Of a stretch of DNA of 28,924 nucleotides, positions 14,045 through 19,215 are shown piece by piece; position 1 is the stretch's first letter, and each line of letters starts with the position of its first letter. A program made the position numbers and the translations under genes. The DNA is from a virus: positions 1 to 28,924 of IMG/VR virus record IMGVR_UViG_3300037584_001024. One strand, 5' to 3'. The notes under the pieces were generated by a model. It saw nothing but the letters and a program-made list of their open reading frames with translations. It was not told the DNA's origin and searched no databases.

Positions 14045-15208
14045 CTAATTTATTGTATATCTTCCAAAGTTAGGTCTGCTTAATATACTATAAGTCGCAT
14101 ACCTTACTGCATCTATAATGTGATTGTTCTTATCTTCTGGAATATTTGTTAGCTTTCCGCTCTTATCTTCTTTCCATTTATAATTCCTGAACTCCTGAAT
14201 TGCATTGTTACTTGTAGAAGTAATAAAAACCTTATACCTCTTCAATAAATCGATTCCAGCATTTACACTATCCCTACCCTTTAAACTAGGTCTAATGTTC
14301 CAACCCATTCTTCTTAATTCTTCTATTAATCTCGGCTCACTACTATCCATATATAATTGATTTCTTGCAACCCCTACCTCCTTAAATGTATTGTGTAGAT
14401 CTTTAGTGGTCATTTGTGTTCTGTATAAATGTTCTTTAATATAAAGATTATAATCTAAACTATAAACACTTACAAGTGTTGAGGGATCATTGGAGTATCC
14501 TGCATCTGCACCATATGCTATAAACTTAGCATCTTCAGGTATCTGTGAGCATTCATAATAATTAAATATAGTAGCTTTGCTTATACCCTTTAATCCTAAT
14601 CCATATATCTGCCAGTATTGTTCATCCGTTTCTTTTAATCTTTCTATCTCGGATTTAATGCTTTGTTCTAAGAAAGGATTATCTAAATAAGTTGTTCTAA
14701 AGAAATCACAATCTTCTCTAGGTATTACTTTATCATATATCCAATGGTATTCGTCACTCGGATTGTAATCAATTATAATTTTGCCATCTGTTCTAAATAT
14801 TAATTGTTGCCAATCTTCCCAATTTAACTCATTAGCTTCATTAATAAATAACAGGTTTCTTTTTCTACCTCTTACCTTTTGTGGCATATCTAAGCTAATA
14901 AACTCTACAAGATTATTAAACAACCTATACTCGCTATTGGATTTATTGTGATCCTCTTCTTTGTATATATTTAATTTACGCAATATGTCTAGGAAATCAC
15001 GCATTACCGAAGCTCTTAAACTAGGAAAGGCTTTTCTGCAGATTGTTATTGTTTTGTTTCGATTACTCGCACAATATTGCAAGATAATCCATAAGAGTAT
15101 ATTATATGTTTTACCAGATCTTGTACCACCCTGTTCAACAATAATTTTTTTATTACTATTGATGAGATGCTTATAGACTTTATTGGTTTGTATCTTCTGT
15201 TTTATCAA
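14045..15208 (-). CDS. terL: Terminase large subunit
   Basis: 387 aa. ATPase domain: Walker A GGTRSGKT (27-34), Walker B NLLFINEANE (118-127), coupling motif around IIIDYNPS (144-151). Nuclease domain with the three expected acidic positions: D235 in YGADAGYSNDP, D288 in LYMDSSEPR and D366 in NNHIIDAVRYA. It packages and cuts phage DNA at the portal. The sequence is of the PBSX/Terminase_3-type. The start overlaps the small terminase gene by 29 nt. It follows directly on the modification cassette, so base modification and packaging genes may share a transcript. Confidence 0.93.
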   Translation of the reverse strand: MIKQKIQTNKVYKHLINSNKKIIVEQGGTRSGKTYNILLWIILQYCASNRNKTITICRKAFPSLRASVMRDFLDILRKLNIYKEEDHNKSNSEYRLFNNLVEFISLDMPQKVRGRKRNLLFINEANELNWEDWQQLIFRTDGKIIIDYNPSDEYHWIYDKVIPREDCDFFRTTYLDNPFLEQSIKSEIERLKETDEQYWQIYGLGLKGISKATIFNYYECSQIPEDAKFIAYGADAGYSNDPSTLVSVYSLDYNLYIKEHLYRTQMTTKDLHNTFKEVGVARNQLYMDSSEPRLIEELRRMGWNIRPSLKGRDSVNAGIDLLKRYKVFITSTSNNAIQEFRNYKWKEDKSGKLTNIPEDKNNHIIDAVRYATYSILSRPNFGRYTIN

Positions 15209-15539
15209 TTATCTCTACTTGAAAATTAGTAGGCACCCCATCAGCACCTGTGATCTCTTGTCTTTCTACATATCCTCTTTTCTTTCCTTTTGTTTTCAAA
15301 TAAAATATAGTCGCACTTGTTGAGTTCTCGGCTATCTGTCTGTGTAATTGTGATTCAGCAAAATCCAATGCTACATTCTGCACATCATCTACTTGCTTTT
15401 TAAATTCTAGATCTGTGTTATACCAGTCATAGTAAGTTGTTCTGCCTATGCCCACTTTCTTACAGGCTGTTGTAACAACTCCCAAAGATTTTTCTAATGC
15501 ATCTAATAATGCCTTTTTATGCTGTTCGGTTTTGTTCAT
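15180..15539 (-). CDS. terS: Terminase small subunit
   Basis: 119 aa from ATG at 15539; an in-frame TTG two codons upstream is possible but less likely. The N-terminal half holds a helix-turn-helix, VTTACKKVGIGRTTYYDWYN (about 22-41), followed by helices EFKKQVDDVQNVALDFAESQLHRQI and a C-terminal TKGKKRGYVERQEITG. This is the usual form of phage small terminase that recognises packaging sites. The start overlaps the dioxygenase gene stop by 23 nt. Next to terL the call is safe. Confidence 0.85.
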   Translation of the reverse strand: MNKTEQHKKALLDALEKSLGVVTTACKKVGIGRTTYYDWYNTDLEFKKQVDDVQNVALDFAESQLHRQIAENSTSATIFYLKTKGKKRGYVERQEITGADGVPTNFQVEIIDKTEDTNQ

Positions 15540-16407
15540 TTTCAATACTATTTTTATAATCTTTTGCTTCTTTTTTTCTTTGTCGTAATGAATCTAAATG
15601 ATCAGGATCTAATCGATTAGCTTCACGCACCATTTTCTTTTCTCTAATTCTGTCAATCTCTTCTTCTATTGTATTGCATTGCCACATTCTTTCTAGTGAA
15701 TAATAAACAACACTATACCTATAAGCCTTATTATTTCCATACTCAATAGGGCTAACTCCGTGTAGTAAATCTTGTCCATCGAATATAGTCAATGAATTGT
15801 CTGCTACTTCTAATGATATATCTAGTTCTGGTATTACCAAATGTCCACCCTGCACATCTCCTTTAAACACAACCATATTGCTGTAAACATTTTTAAAGTT
15901 ACCAGAATCGTAATGATATTTTAATTGATTGTTTTTGTTTACAATACCGCTTGTAAATACACTATTATTAATTACCCATTGTTCTTTTACCTTATCTTTT
16001 ACTTTGTTTTTGTGTTCGCTAAATGTTTCAGGAAAGAACTCGTGATAGTATTTAGATACTTCTTGTGCAAATCTGCTAATAACATAATGCTGTTTAGGGT
16101 GTGAGGTTCCCATTGCACTAGCACTACAATAATCGTGTTTATTTTCTTGTCTTGGATTATAGCCAAATACTGCGCTTGTGTTGACTAGTCCGTGTGTTCT
16201 TTTGCCTGTTCCGTATTTAATGTTTTTGACTGCCCATCGCACATCGTTTGGTTTCTTGGGTAAAATCCTGTAAAGTAAAATGGGCTTGTTGTTATGATAT
16301 ATAATTACATCATCTTTTATATGTCTGCTTACATCTGATAACATCGCTGTTCTTCTGATATAATCTTTTTTGTCAATTGGTTTTCTATCTACATCTATTC
16401 TTCTCAT
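15517..16407 (-). CDS. TET/JBP-type 2OG-Fe(II) DNA base dioxygenase
   Basis: 296 aa. The double-stranded beta-helix core shows the iron ligands H165 and D167 in YHYDSGN, GG at 187-188, the distal H216 in LLHGVSP and R230 in YRYSVVYY for 2-oxoglutarate. Upstream, VFGYNPRQENKHDYC (80-94) matches the 'G..pr...r..yC' pattern of the TET/JBP family. Known members oxidise 5-methylcytosine or thymine in DNA. The C-terminal helix (250-296) is Lys/Arg-rich. Its start overlaps the glycosyltransferase stop (ATGA), and its end runs into terS. Phage TETs in published work act on 5mC, but no cytosine methyltransferase is in this window, so the substrate is open. Confidence 0.85.
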   Translation of the reverse strand: MRRIDVDRKPIDKKDYIRRTAMLSDVSRHIKDDVIIYHNNKPILLYRILPKKPNDVRWAVKNIKYGTGKRTHGLVNTSAVFGYNPRQENKHDYCSASAMGTSHPKQHYVISRFAQEVSKYYHEFFPETFSEHKNKVKDKVKEQWVINNSVFTSGIVNKNNQLKYHYDSGNFKNVYSNMVVFKGDVQGGHLVIPELDISLEVADNSLTIFDGQDLLHGVSPIEYGNNKAYRYSVVYYSLERMWQCNTIEEEIDRIREKKMVREANRLDPDHLDSLRQRKKEAKDYKNSIENEQNRTA

Positions 16408-17147
16408 CGCATATCTTTTAATCTTAATTCAGCATTGCCTGTTGTTTTTCTAATATACATTTTACAAAATTCAGGAAACATACTCTGTATTTGATATATA
16501 GAATCATATACATATTGTTTTGTTCTTATCTCTTGTAGCCCCCCCTGTTCTTTATAATAATTTGATTTAACTGTTAAGTAATCTAATCTTACAAGCCTTT
16601 TGTTTCTTATGTATTGCCTAATACTATATTCATAATCCTCTCCGTGGTTTGTAACACGATCTAAAAATTTATCGTGATCAACAATGACACCAAACATAGA
16701 AGCAATTATATAGCATAGCTTTGTATATATTCTGTTCTTCATAAAATACGGATTGCCTGCTGCATAAATACCAAAGGTTTTAGCTTGTATTTGCTCACAA
16801 GCATTAAATCCTTTATAAAAGACGTCTTTTTCCAAATCCTCAACATCTATTAGCTTATTACCTTTTTTTCTTTGCACCTTTTCTATATCATCATCAAACA
16901 TCATTAGCCTTGTACCCTCATCATAATACTTCTCAATAAAGTTTCTTTGTTTGCCAATGGTGGGCACACCTACAACAATTTTATAATTATCCGCAAGGCT
17001 TTCTTTGTATATTTTTTCTTCTTCTTTGTTTGCTACAAAAATTGTAATCAGATCTTTACTAATATTATAATCCGATAAAAGCCTTAATGTTTTCTTTTTT
17101 ATTGTTTCTGGTCGCTTATAAGATGGTATTGCAATTTTATAATCCAT
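16404..17147 (-). CDS. TET-associated glycosyltransferase-like GT-A enzyme
   Basis: 247 aa from ATG at 17147 (a TTG three codons earlier is less likely). The N-terminal IAIPSYKRPETIKKKTL is typical of GT-A enzymes, VPTIGKQRNFIEKYY precedes the acidic DDD (85-87, in LMMFDDDIEK) that would bind the metal and sugar nucleotide, and NHGEDYEYSIRQYI (about 162-175) supplies a later acidic motif. This order matches the TAGT family predicted to glycosylate bases hydroxylated by phage TET/JBP enzymes. It is tied by overlaps to the ParB-like gene upstream and the dioxygenase downstream. Sugar and linkage cannot be told from sequence. Confidence 0.75.
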   Translation of the reverse strand: MDYKIAIPSYKRPETIKKKTLRLLSDYNISKDLITIFVANKEEEKIYKESLADNYKIVVGVPTIGKQRNFIEKYYDEGTRLMMFDDDIEKVQRKKGNKLIDVEDLEKDVFYKGFNACEQIQAKTFGIYAAGNPYFMKNRIYTKLCYIIASMFGVIVDHDKFLDRVTNHGEDYEYSIRQYIRNKRLVRLDYLTVKSNYYKEQGGLQEIRTKQYVYDSIYQIQSMFPEFCKMYIRKTTGNAELRLKDMR

Positions 17148-17718
17148 ACTTATCAATTAAAAATTTAAATGCCTGTGTGTTGTCCGTAAGGCTTTCTTTT
17201 TCTCTTATTGTTTCTAGATCTTTAACTGCCTTTTCATACTCATCTGCATTAAAATACAGGGTTATTTGCTTTACCTTTGCATTTATATATGTGTCTAATT
17301 CTTGATGAAAAATATCTTTGTCAACTTCAGGCTCCTCGTCCTCATCAAAATATATTCTAGGCAGATCTAATCCCCATTCCTTTAATTCATTTAACTCCCA
17401 TTCGTTTGCCAACACATCCCAGTCCCATTCTCCAAAGCTACTGTTATCTTTAATAACAAATTCTTTTTTTTGTTTTTCTGATAAATCATCTGCCTGTATA
17501 ACATAAACATTTTTTAAACCCGCCTGCACTGCAGCCTTGTATCGCATATTGCCACCCAGTATAATATTGTTCTCATCCACAACAATTGGTCGCAACTGCA
17601 TCATTTCTGGAAAATCCTTAATGCTTTTTACAAGCTTGTTAAATTTATAGTCCTTAATTACCCTTGGGTTTTGTGGATTGTTTTTAATTTTATCTATGTT
17701 TATTTTTATAGGTTTCAT
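17137..17718 (-). CDS. ParB-like nuclease-domain protein of the modification cassette
   Basis: 193 aa. The ParB/Srx-type core is at 1-95: NNPQNPRVI (13-21), QLRPIVVDENNIILGGNMRYKAA with the GGNMR box (55-59) and DDLSEKQKKEFVIKDN. Then FGEWDWDVLANEWELNELKEWG (95-116), which in many phages precedes a DNA methylase domain; here no methylase follows, only an acidic linker and a short alpha/beta tail. Such ParB proteins often sit beside DNA modification enzymes, and TET/JBP-TAGT-ParB neighbourhoods have been predicted in phages. It heads the cassette, with TTTATATA at -13. Whether it is a nuclease, CTP-switch or adaptor is not clear. Confidence 0.75.
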   Translation of the reverse strand: MKPIKINIDKIKNNPQNPRVIKDYKFNKLVKSIKDFPEMMQLRPIVVDENNIILGGNMRYKAAVQAGLKNVYVIQADDLSEKQKKEFVIKDNSSFGEWDWDVLANEWELNELKEWGLDLPRIYFDEDEEPEVDKDIFHQELDTYINAKVKQITLYFNADEYEKAVKDLETIREKESLTDNTQAFKFLIDKYGL

Positions 17719-17736: not shown

Positions 17737-18159
17737 TTAATTTTTTTTATTTAAATTTTTAACAGGCAACTGGTTTACTATTCTATAAATTCTATTTACA
17801 TAATCATCACTTATGTAATCTATCTTATGTTTTATTGTTTCTCTTTTTAATCTCTTTAATTCATCATCAGTATATCTTTGCTTAAAAATATCAAACCATT
17901 CATCTAGCTTTTCATTATACTTTCTATATACTTCAAAATTTCTTAAGCTGTGTAAAGCTGTTGCGTGATCATAACTCTTGCCCATACTTTTATAAAAATC
18001 CTTTATATCATATAAAGTAAAATTGTAATGATTCCTTAATATGAAATTAAATAAAGATCTAGGCTCTGTATGTTTTCTGCTTCTGCTTTCTTCAAATATA
18101 TCTACCCCAGATAAATCTTTTAATAGTTGCACTATTTGTTTTATTTCTTTATTCTTCAT
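17737..18159 (-). CDS. Stand-alone DnaA domain IV-like DNA-binding protein
   Basis: 140 aa from ATG at 18159; an in-frame TTG at 18186 inside the preceding gene would add 9 residues but ATG is preferred. Residues 25-75 look like the DnaA C-terminal HTH: RSRKHTEPRSLFNFILRN, YDIKDFYKSMGKSYDHATALHSL, where DHATALHS replaces the family's DHSTVLHA signature that contacts DnaA boxes. No AAA+ ATPase precedes it, so it is only the DNA-binding part, plus a basic helical C-terminus. It could bind the phage origin or compete for host DnaA boxes, or act as a regulator. Domain call is good, role inferred. Confidence 0.7.
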   Translation of the reverse strand: MKNKEIKQIVQLLKDLSGVDIFEESRSRKHTEPRSLFNFILRNHYNFTLYDIKDFYKSMGKSYDHATALHSLRNFEVYRKYNEKLDEWFDIFKQRYTDDELKRLKRETIKHKIDYISDDYVNRIYRIVNQLPVKNLNKKN

Positions 18160-18169
18160 CCTCACTTTT

Positions 18170-18451
18170 TTATTCTGTTCCTGCAATAATATGATCAGAT
18201 GGGTGTCTGTTTCTATTATACTGGTCCACCCTCCATTGATCCTTTCTTTCTAACTTTTCTAATTCAAAAGTCAAATGGTCTATTGCTTTTTGTAAATCCT
18301 GATTAGGTGTTTTATGTTTCTTATATGCTCTAAGTATATAAGTTACTGCTGTGCCTAAATGATAATTTAATTCAAAGTTATCCACTACTTGCTTTGCTGT
18401 ATATCCATTATCACCATTATAATATTCAGGTGTCTTTACTTTTGTTTTCAT
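18170..18451 (-). CDS. DUF3310-like protein (93 aa)
   Basis: 93 aa. KTPEYYNGDNGYTAKQVVDNFELNYHLGTAVTYILRA (split here at about 7-25 and 26-43) followed by DLQKAIDHLTFELEKLER matches the DUF3310 pattern (Y-x-x-x-x-x-E, G-N-x-x-K/T-Y-x-x-R, D-L-x-K-A). The family is common in phages, often near nucleotide metabolism genes, and is of unknown function. The start overlaps the RecE-like gene stop as ATGA. Confidence 0.65.
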   Translation of the reverse strand: MKTKVKTPEYYNGDNGYTAKQVVDNFELNYHLGTAVTYILRAYKKHKTPNQDLQKAIDHLTFELEKLERKDQWRVDQYNRNRHPSDHIIAGTE

Positions 18452-19215
18452 AATGTTCCACTAATATAATAATTATCTATATCTACCCCATCTATAAAAT
18501 ACGTTTCAAATATCTCTAATGCTTTCTTCACCTTCTCTTGCCCTCTTAAATAAAAATCCTCACTACAATCCCACACCCCAATATCTAAGCTACCTTTGTC
18601 GATAACTACAAATTTAAAATCTTTATAAGATCTATCAAATAAATTACAATATAAATAACATTGCACATCATAAGAATATCTATTAGCACTATGATGAAAA
18701 TTTTTTATATCAGTTGTAGTTTTAAGATCACAAATATAGTATCTTCCCAATACATCTGCTTTGCCCCTAAAGGGATAGCCATCTATTATTTTAATCATAG
18801 GCTGTTCAAAGATACTGTCAGTAATCATTTTTAAAGCTGTTTCATTTCTAAAGAAAGCATCTGCTAGTTTCTCTGCATCCTGCTTTTCTTTCATTGTAAA
18901 TACTTTGCCGTATTCTTCCTTTGCCAACTTATATGCCTTTGTGTTTTTGGATTTTACATCTACAAAGATTTGTTTTTCAAATACATCTGGCTCTAAAATT
19001 GCTGTGTGAAATAACCACCCATCCCTAAGTGCCTGGCTTTGAGCGCTTCCATACTTTAAAACATACTTATACGTTTTAGGGCTACTTAATAAAAGTTTAA
19101 TGCTGGAACTAGATAATGCTAAATGATTCAGTTCACCGTAATAAAAATCATCATTATACATTTTATTAATTAGATCTTCTTCTTCGTAATGTTTTCCGTT
19201 TAATAATTGTATCAT
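18448..19215 (-). CDS. RecE-like PD-(D/E)XK exonuclease
   Basis: 255 aa. Motifs in order: LALSSSSIKLLLSSPKTYKY (32-51), ALRDGWLFHTAILEP (62-76, H70), GKADVLGRYYICDLKTT (151-167, with D154 and the D163-x-K165 pair) and YDVQCYLYC (182-190). These match the exodeoxyribonuclease VIII-type PDDEXK domain (DUF3799) found in phage recombination modules, a 5'-3' exonuclease working with a single-strand annealing protein. The annealase partner is not obvious; the OB-fold protein at 23071-23436 is one candidate. Starts by ATGA overlap with the 39-codon zinc-binding-like gene. Confidence 0.8.
   Translation of the reverse strand: MIQLLNGKHYEEEDLINKMYNDDFYYGELNHLALSSSSIKLLLSSPKTYKYVLKYGSAQSQALRDGWLFHTAILEPDVFEKQIFVDVKSKNTKAYKLAKEEYGKVFTMKEKQDAEKLADAFFRNETALKMITDSIFEQPMIKIIDGYPFRGKADVLGRYYICDLKTTTDIKNFHHSANRYSYDVQCYLYCNLFDRSYKDFKFVVIDKGSLDIGVWDCSEDFYLRGQEKVKKALEIFETYFIDGVDIDNYYISGTL

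Follow-up and report, generated by a model that had tools for sequence, protein, structure and literature searches.

A gene array running into the terminase genes

The stretch of DNA considered here (the window) is the complete linear IMG/VR record IMGVR_UViG_3300037584_001024, of 28,924 bases; absence of a gene from it does not amount to absence from the phage. The source is a marine phage, and the element of interest is a cassette on its minus strand in which genes for a ParB-like protein, a TAGT glycosyltransferase and a TET/JBP dioxygenase are followed by those for the small (TerS) and large (TerL) terminase subunits. Inspection of the open reading frames (ORFs) shows that every neighbouring pair in this array of five overlaps (Table 1). 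An original prediction, made without database searches, had placed overlapping ParB, glycosyltransferase and dioxygenase genes here and had read them as a DNA-hypermodification neighbourhood fused into the terminase operon. The ORF positions and Pfam matches agree with this layout, and the neighbourhood is supported in that all three family assignments hold by profile, the Tet_JBP, TAGT, ParB_N and Terminase_3 matches each exceeding the curated cut-off. The word "fused" is loose, since it is the genes that overlap, running into terS and terL, and the proteins are separate.

By profile (50.8 bits against a cut-off of 34.9) and predicted fold, the dioxygenase belongs to the TET/JBP family, and its predicted activity is oxidation of a DNA base. 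The AlphaFold model has a predicted local distance difference test score (pLDDT) of 93, and the structural match to TET/JBP that the original prediction had proposed to look for is present: TET-family enzymes (NgTET1, CMD1, CcTET and TET2) fill the first 26 places among its PDB matches, with FTO and ABH2/AlkB-type enzymes ranking below them and TM-scores that are moderate (0.5-0.6). A TET-family profile also finds CMD1 (9e-05) and TET2 (1.4e-04) by sequence. The catalytic residues previously listed as intact, H165, D167 and H216 for iron and R230 for 2-oxoglutarate, are invariant in 35 aligned TETs, including one from a Mycobacterium phage and one from a Gordonia phage. A C-terminal helical extension begins in the window TET at about residue 247.

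The identity of the TAGT likewise holds by profile (62.9 bits, cut-off 27.5), and sugar transfer is the predicted activity; its gene adjoins that of TET, and the protein also matches PHROG 842, "beta-glucosyl-HMC-alpha-glucosyltransferase". The DDD motif and HGED box of a GT-A enzyme, both noticed at the outset, correspond to D88-D89-D90 and H171-G172-E173-D174, which are invariant in 17 TAGTs, the window protein and 16 close relatives. The TAGT ORF opens at TTG, and the likely true start is the ATG at 17147. Chance or misread ORFs are ruled out for the cassette by the Pfam matches, the invariant catalytic residues and purifying selection, the ratio of nonsynonymous to synonymous substitution rates (dN/dS) being 0.02-0.08 against near relatives.

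Table 1. Features of the ParB-TAGT-TET/JBP cassette and adjoining terminase genes (window coordinates)
Feature	Position	Strand	Basis
ParB (full gene)	17137-17718	minus	ORF; PF02195 match
ParB N-domain, residues 1-118, conserved "socket"	17365-17718	minus	ParB_N E=3e-07; AlphaFold/Foldseek; border of homology to phages carrying other cargo, 17358-17366
ParB C-terminal tail, residues 119-193, cargo-specific element	17137-17364	minus	Tail profile; predicted helices 134-149, 158-174, 180-191
TAGT, GT-A-like glycosyltransferase PF20691	16404-17156	minus	Pfam E=5.2e-17; PHROG 842 E=8.5e-22; motifs
TET/JBP Fe(II)/2-oxoglutarate dioxygenase PF12851	15517-16407	minus	Pfam E=1.4e-13; catalytic residues; AlphaFold
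TerS, small terminase subunit, downstream slot border	15180-15545	minus	PHROG 4044 E=1.7e-08; homology resumes at 15540-15542
TerL, large terminase subunit, part of the backbone beside the slot	14045-15208	minus	Terminase_3 E=3.9e-24

Exchange of cargo between ParB and TerS

Comparison with related viral contigs, whose loci are designated by L-numbers, indicates that the stretch from the ParB N-domain to TerS is an exchange slot holding mostly DNA-modifying enzymes. Two loci with different contents, L085 (a Mom gene) and L084 (TAGT only), encode TerL proteins about 97% identical to that of the window; coming from upstream, their DNA matches the window as far as 17366 and 17358 respectively, inside parB at about codon 118, and does so again from 15542 and 15540, where terS starts. 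In L088 and L103 the break lies at 17365 and homology is back at 15542. Because the seams fall at these points, what is exchanged is the ParB tail together with the cargo. An inner exchange of the glycosyltransferase only is seen in five independent pairs, in which flanks roughly 80-96% identical enclose unrelated or distant glycosyltransferases; the borders lie at the start of TET on one side and, on the other, at the 3′ end of parB or close to it, and the ParB tail stays with TET. A further change, in L017 and L018, is the clean insertion of a C5-methyltransferase gene between the TET stop codon and terS. Between the window and L008, dN is 0.11 for TET and 0.12 for TAGT, compared with 0.22 for TerL and 0.41 for the exonuclease, as is expected if cassettes move.

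To survey the slot, relatives of TET, TerL and ParB were gathered from viral contigs and the genes between ParB and TerS were listed for 185 distinct contigs, with cargo families assigned by Pfam. The most frequent contents were glycosyltransferase plus TET (66), Mom (22), a glycosyltransferase without TET (18), TET with GATase, C7 and ADDT genes (12), an ABC-ATPase/GNAT protein (8) and another glycosyltransferase with TET (5), the remainder being rarer sets. The families recognized include Mom (PF25680), ADDT (PF18724), TAGT (PF20691), C5-methyltransferase (PF00145), D12 and N6/N4 methyltransferases, PAPS reductase and UDP-galactopyranose mutase. A search that does detect the TET of the window gave no TET in any part of 39 records whose cargo is different.

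Several of the less common contents deserve mention. The slot of L094 (1107-4102) contains a QueD/PTPS-like gene, a QueE-like radical SAM gene and GTP cyclohydrolase I, a set that likely resembles the preQ0 pathway for 7-deazaguanine; a 294-residue protein of the same locus, which has no Pfam match, may be a DpdA-like transglycosylase. In eight loci (L088, L093, L103, L130, L154, L231, L233 and L235) the sole cargo is a 356-residue fusion of an ABC-ATPase and a GNAT domain, which might be an acyltransferase like Mom that brings its own ATPase. In the slot of L143 (1040-3892) a protein of PAPS-reductase type precedes a second protein with a ParB domain. A TAGT-type glycosyltransferase is the lone cargo, without TET, in L084, L086, L107, L131, L135 and others; no thymidylate-synthase-type enzyme was found in the records of those tested, and the hydroxyl acceptor is unexplained. 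Finally, in L175 (1529-3578) and L176 a TAGT-like enzyme is found beside UDP-galactopyranose mutase (PF03275, 5.7e-62), a pairing that suggests galactofuranose on DNA.

The enzymes themselves and the association of TET/JBP, TAGT and ParB are already known, and the new part is their setting in a swappable slot. A literature search returned no paper on a ParB-TerS slot with interchangeable modification sets, a weak negative given that key papers were outside its scope. Hypermodification neighbourhoods of phages that combine TET/JBP and TAGT were reportedly described by Iyer et al. in 2013 and Burke et al. in 2021. These are similar to the window in having TET/JBP beside TAGT with a ParB-type gene; the differences are that the window record and most of its relatives are without a C5-methyltransferase, that the slot cargo varies between close relatives, and that the ParB tail is cargo-specific.

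The arrangement recurs in actinophages. In Mycobacterium phage Indlovu the order is ParB, TET, TAGT, a PIG-L deacetylase, a gene labelled adenylate kinase, and terminase; in Mycobacterium phage Prince, ParB is followed by TET and ADDT, with a P-loop kinase (Ploopntkinase3) before terminase; Gordonia phage CaiB is arranged similarly. These cluster B mycobacteriophages and CaiB share with the window ParB, TET, TAGT or ADDT, and terminase, but their order of TET and glycosyltransferase is reversed, they have an extra PIG-L deacetylase and P-loop kinase, and their TETs are only about 29-37% identical. Two contigs from metagenome-assembled genomes (MAGs) are also comparable: an Ignavibacteria contig has ParB-glycosyltransferase-TET followed by genes at the TerS and TerL positions, and an Actinomycetota contig has ParB-TET-ADDT and a kinase ahead of terminase-like genes. 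Because actinophages and MAG contigs show the same setting, joining the packaging operon is usual for such cassettes. The direct read-through into terS and terL that had been singled out for the window is therefore present but not special to this phage. With regard to annotation, many records (PHROG 6059, mycobacteriophages) label TET/JBP dioxygenases as "queuine tRNA-ribosyltransferase", and in records of the same kind ADDT goes under the name "DNA glycosylase" and the P-loop kinase under "adenylate kinase". One GenBank record names its cluster B TET "thymidine hydroxylase", which is an annotation and not evidence.

Upstream of ParB in the window are genes for an Exonuclease VIII-like PDDEXK protein (18448-19215) and a small protein with a DnaA C-terminal-like helix-turn-helix (17737-18186). 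Among named phages, those of Flavobacterium psychrophilum give the best TerL matches, at 36% identity, and a genome scan yielded only the Ignavibacteria and Actinomycetota MAG contigs. The host is probably a member of the Bacteroidota, a view we hold with low confidence.

The ParB N-domain and its cargo-matched tail

The ParB-like identity of the first gene is confirmed by its profile match, which covers residues 5-86 only, and by predicted fold, in that the N-domain model has pLDDT values mostly above 85 and its best Foldseek matches are ParB-CTP/CDP structures. As to the helix-turn-helix and C-terminal dimer domains of partition ParB proteins, the tail is modelled, at lower confidence, as a short helical element. 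A profile of this tail matches 79 loci, all 79 of which contain TET; conversely, near-clade TET loci whose ParB reaches 150 residues or more number 76, and every one of them has the tail. Other cargo is accompanied by unrelated tails, and among pairs with N-domain identity of 60-70% the tails are alike in 47% of same-cargo pairs versus 1% of different-cargo pairs. For 31 loci with both TET and a glycosyltransferase, the partial correlation of tail similarity, given N-domain and TerS, is 0.96 with TET and 0.22 with the glycosyltransferase; across 34 near-clade loci the values are 0.77 with TET, 0.33 with the glycosyltransferase and -0.13 with the ParB N-domain. The associated p values are optimistic, as the permutation treats related loci as exchangeable. 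DNA distance alone does not explain why TET ranks above the glycosyltransferase, because the glycosyltransferase gene sits between the tail and TET. From these comparisons there is good evidence for co-inheritance of the tail with TET, and moderate evidence for a functional link between them.

An alternative scenario is that ParB is a plain packaging or replication gene and the slot an insertion point, with the tail travelling only because the N-domain and TerS serve as recombination arms. This is a serious possibility, which we lean against, and it is compatible with the presence of a DNA-modification cassette, so that our confidence in it and in the other readings is not exclusive. The breakpoints do lie at the edges of conserved sequence, as homologous recombination alone would give, and ParB precedes TerS throughout. 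However, a bystander role does not readily account for the absence of mismatched tails and cargo in the counts given above, for retention of the tail with TET when the intervening gene is replaced, or for the position of ParB, which actinophages keep first in the TET cassette. It is also at odds with the cargo-less loci (n=11), whose ParBs are 366-499 residues long. L229, the only one of these scanned against Pfam, is fused to an N6/N4 methyltransferase, and further cargo-less ParBs carry the same TDPPY and GSGST motifs when inspected by eye; in addition, "DNA modification methylase" genes matching the window ParB are common in Streptococcus phages. The ParB-domain DNA methyltransferases of phages (PHROG 498 type) share the ParB N-domain type, which here adjoins DNA-modifying genes, but the window enzymes are separate genes, unfused to ParB.

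Two generalizations were discarded. A first idea confined ParB to loci that carry a separate modification gene; loci in which ParB directly precedes TerS seemed to speak against it, until these were seen to have the longer ParBs with methyltransferase motifs. The idea that ParB-less relatives never carry modification genes was dropped when a C5-methyltransferase was found in four of them. We know of no explanation for what ParB-like genes do next to the DNA-modification genes of phages. As a tentative proposal, which we consider less likely than not, the ParB N-domain may be a general adaptor for phage DNA-modifying enzymes (oxidase, Mom, glycosyltransferase, methyltransferase and deazaguanine enzymes), acting through a chemistry-specific tail or by direct fusion and linking modification to packaging, so that the chemistry would be changed by swapping tail and cargo.

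Substrate base, proposed working and implications

The overall reading that we favour, and consider probable, is of a DNA-hypermodification cassette housed in an exchangeable slot that runs from the ParB N-domain to TerS, in which thymine would be modified, a sugar added and the dioxygenase docked by ParB. Its computed basis consists of the families, catalytic residues, purifying selection, exchange boundaries and tail-TET co-inheritance; enzyme activity, the thymine substrate, the sugar, the docking role of the tail and a protective function are what we infer from these.

The original prediction had noted that no cytosine methyltransferase or nucleotide hydroxymethylase is in the window, and had left the source of the modified base open. 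Searches bear out the first point: neither a C5-methyltransferase (PF00145) nor a thymidylate-synthase-type enzyme was found in the window record. As that record does not extend beyond the window, relatives served for the wider search for a methyltransferase. The second point is now narrowed, in that comparative evidence favours thymine over 5-methylcytosine (5mC). Since none of the 48 TET records has a thymidylate-synthase-type enzyme, a nucleotide-level route is unsupported, and TET would supply the hydroxymethyl group in the window. We regard thymine as the likely TET substrate because ADDT and kinase genes are recurrent partners of TET relatives, while a C5-methyltransferase above the PF00145 cut-off, next to TET, is present in only 3 of the 48 TET records. 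In phages such as ViI and M6, the substrates of ADDT are thymine-derived bases. This enzyme co-occurs with TET at three places of the TET tree, one of which (L064) is within the wider clade of the window, and all eight ADDT-bearing records among the 35 tested carry TET. These are relatives and not the window itself: ADDT is found in L064, L065 and L067, whose TETs are about 60% identical to that of the window, in the far clade and in actinophages. Sets of TET, ADDT and P-loop kinase, often with a GATase or FAD enzyme, occur in L064 (1876-4835), L171, L188, L214 and L222, and are candidate thymine hypermodification pathways in marine phages. In pairing TET with ADDT, a P-loop kinase and a FAD enzyme, L064, L171, L214 and L222 resemble the ADDT pathways of thymine-hypermodifying phages of the ViI and M6 type; the window has TAGT in place of ADDT. 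A base-contact residue, five positions after the iron-binding histidine, was tried as a test for thymine or 5mC; near-clade TETs have Asn there (N170) and those of the ADDT clade Asp, and because both are found at this position in 5mC enzymes, it decides nothing.

Several observations weigh against the reading as a whole. No helix-turn-helix DNA-binding domain is recognizable in the window ParB by Pfam or AlphaFold, and linkage alone could give tail-TET co-inheritance, both being inside the homology arms. The related virus records are fragments, and genes may lie elsewhere in those phages. Finally, L017, L018 and L029, whose TETs are 81-84% identical to that of the window, have a PF00145 gene immediately behind TET, which is what a 5mC pathway would show. 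In such a route, a phage or host C5-methyltransferase would form 5mC, TET would convert it to 5-hydroxymethylcytosine and TAGT would glycosylate the product. The best-matching solved enzymes were all solved as, or with, methylated-DNA oxidases (acting on 5mC or N6-methyladenine), and one article (PMC12730594) describes a C5-methyltransferase/TET/glycosyltransferase route in phages, citing Burke et al. We nevertheless consider 5mC an unlikely source. The other 45 TET records, ten of them about 29 kb long, are without a gene above the PF00145 cut-off, and the TET tree shows the methyltransferase as a single recent gain, cleanly inserted between TET and TerS. This gene also occurs upstream of TerL without TET in L118, L119, L121 and L129, and the pairing of ADDT with TETs of the same wider clade (L064) points away from 5mC. 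A target other than the phage genome, such as host DNA or RNA or cell-surface sugars, would be consistent with TAGT being a GT-A-type enzyme and with TAGT-only slots having no known hydroxylated base, but is very improbable given that the interchangeable genes come from families devoted to DNA modification (Mom, ADDT, N6/N4 and C5 methyltransferases, preQ0 enzymes) and sit beside packaging genes.

With thymine as the preferred substrate, the cassette might work as follows. TET/JBP would hydroxylate the 5-methyl group of a pyrimidine in replicated phage DNA, most likely converting thymine to 5-hydroxymethyluracil, and TAGT would transfer a sugar onto the new hydroxyl to give, ahead of packaging, a glycosylated base resembling base J. 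ParB would use the tail that matches its cargo to dock or direct the dioxygenase on DNA, and the modified DNA would be packaged by the terminase encoded next door, protected against host nucleases by the modification. A glycosyltransferase swap would change the sugar or decoration, and hence which host nucleases are evaded, while a swap of the whole unit of ParB tail and cargo would change the base chemistry. The kinetoplastid base J pathway (JBP1/2 plus the J-glucosyltransferase) is similar in its proposed hydroxylation of thymine by a TET/JBP enzyme followed by glycosylation. The base J glycosyltransferase differs from the window TAGT, and no J-binding domain was seen in the window cassette, unlike the base J pathway.

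We suggest that the slot can be used as a catalogue, since one locus in 185 contigs lists alternative DNA chemistries, including hints of unusual sugars on DNA. The pairings of TET with ADDT offer a cheap route to candidate thymine-oxidizing TET enzymes for biotechnology. Finally, with an N-domain that is constant across chemistries, a tail that is matched to the cargo and methyltransferase fusions in some phages, a docking or targeting role for ParB is directly testable.

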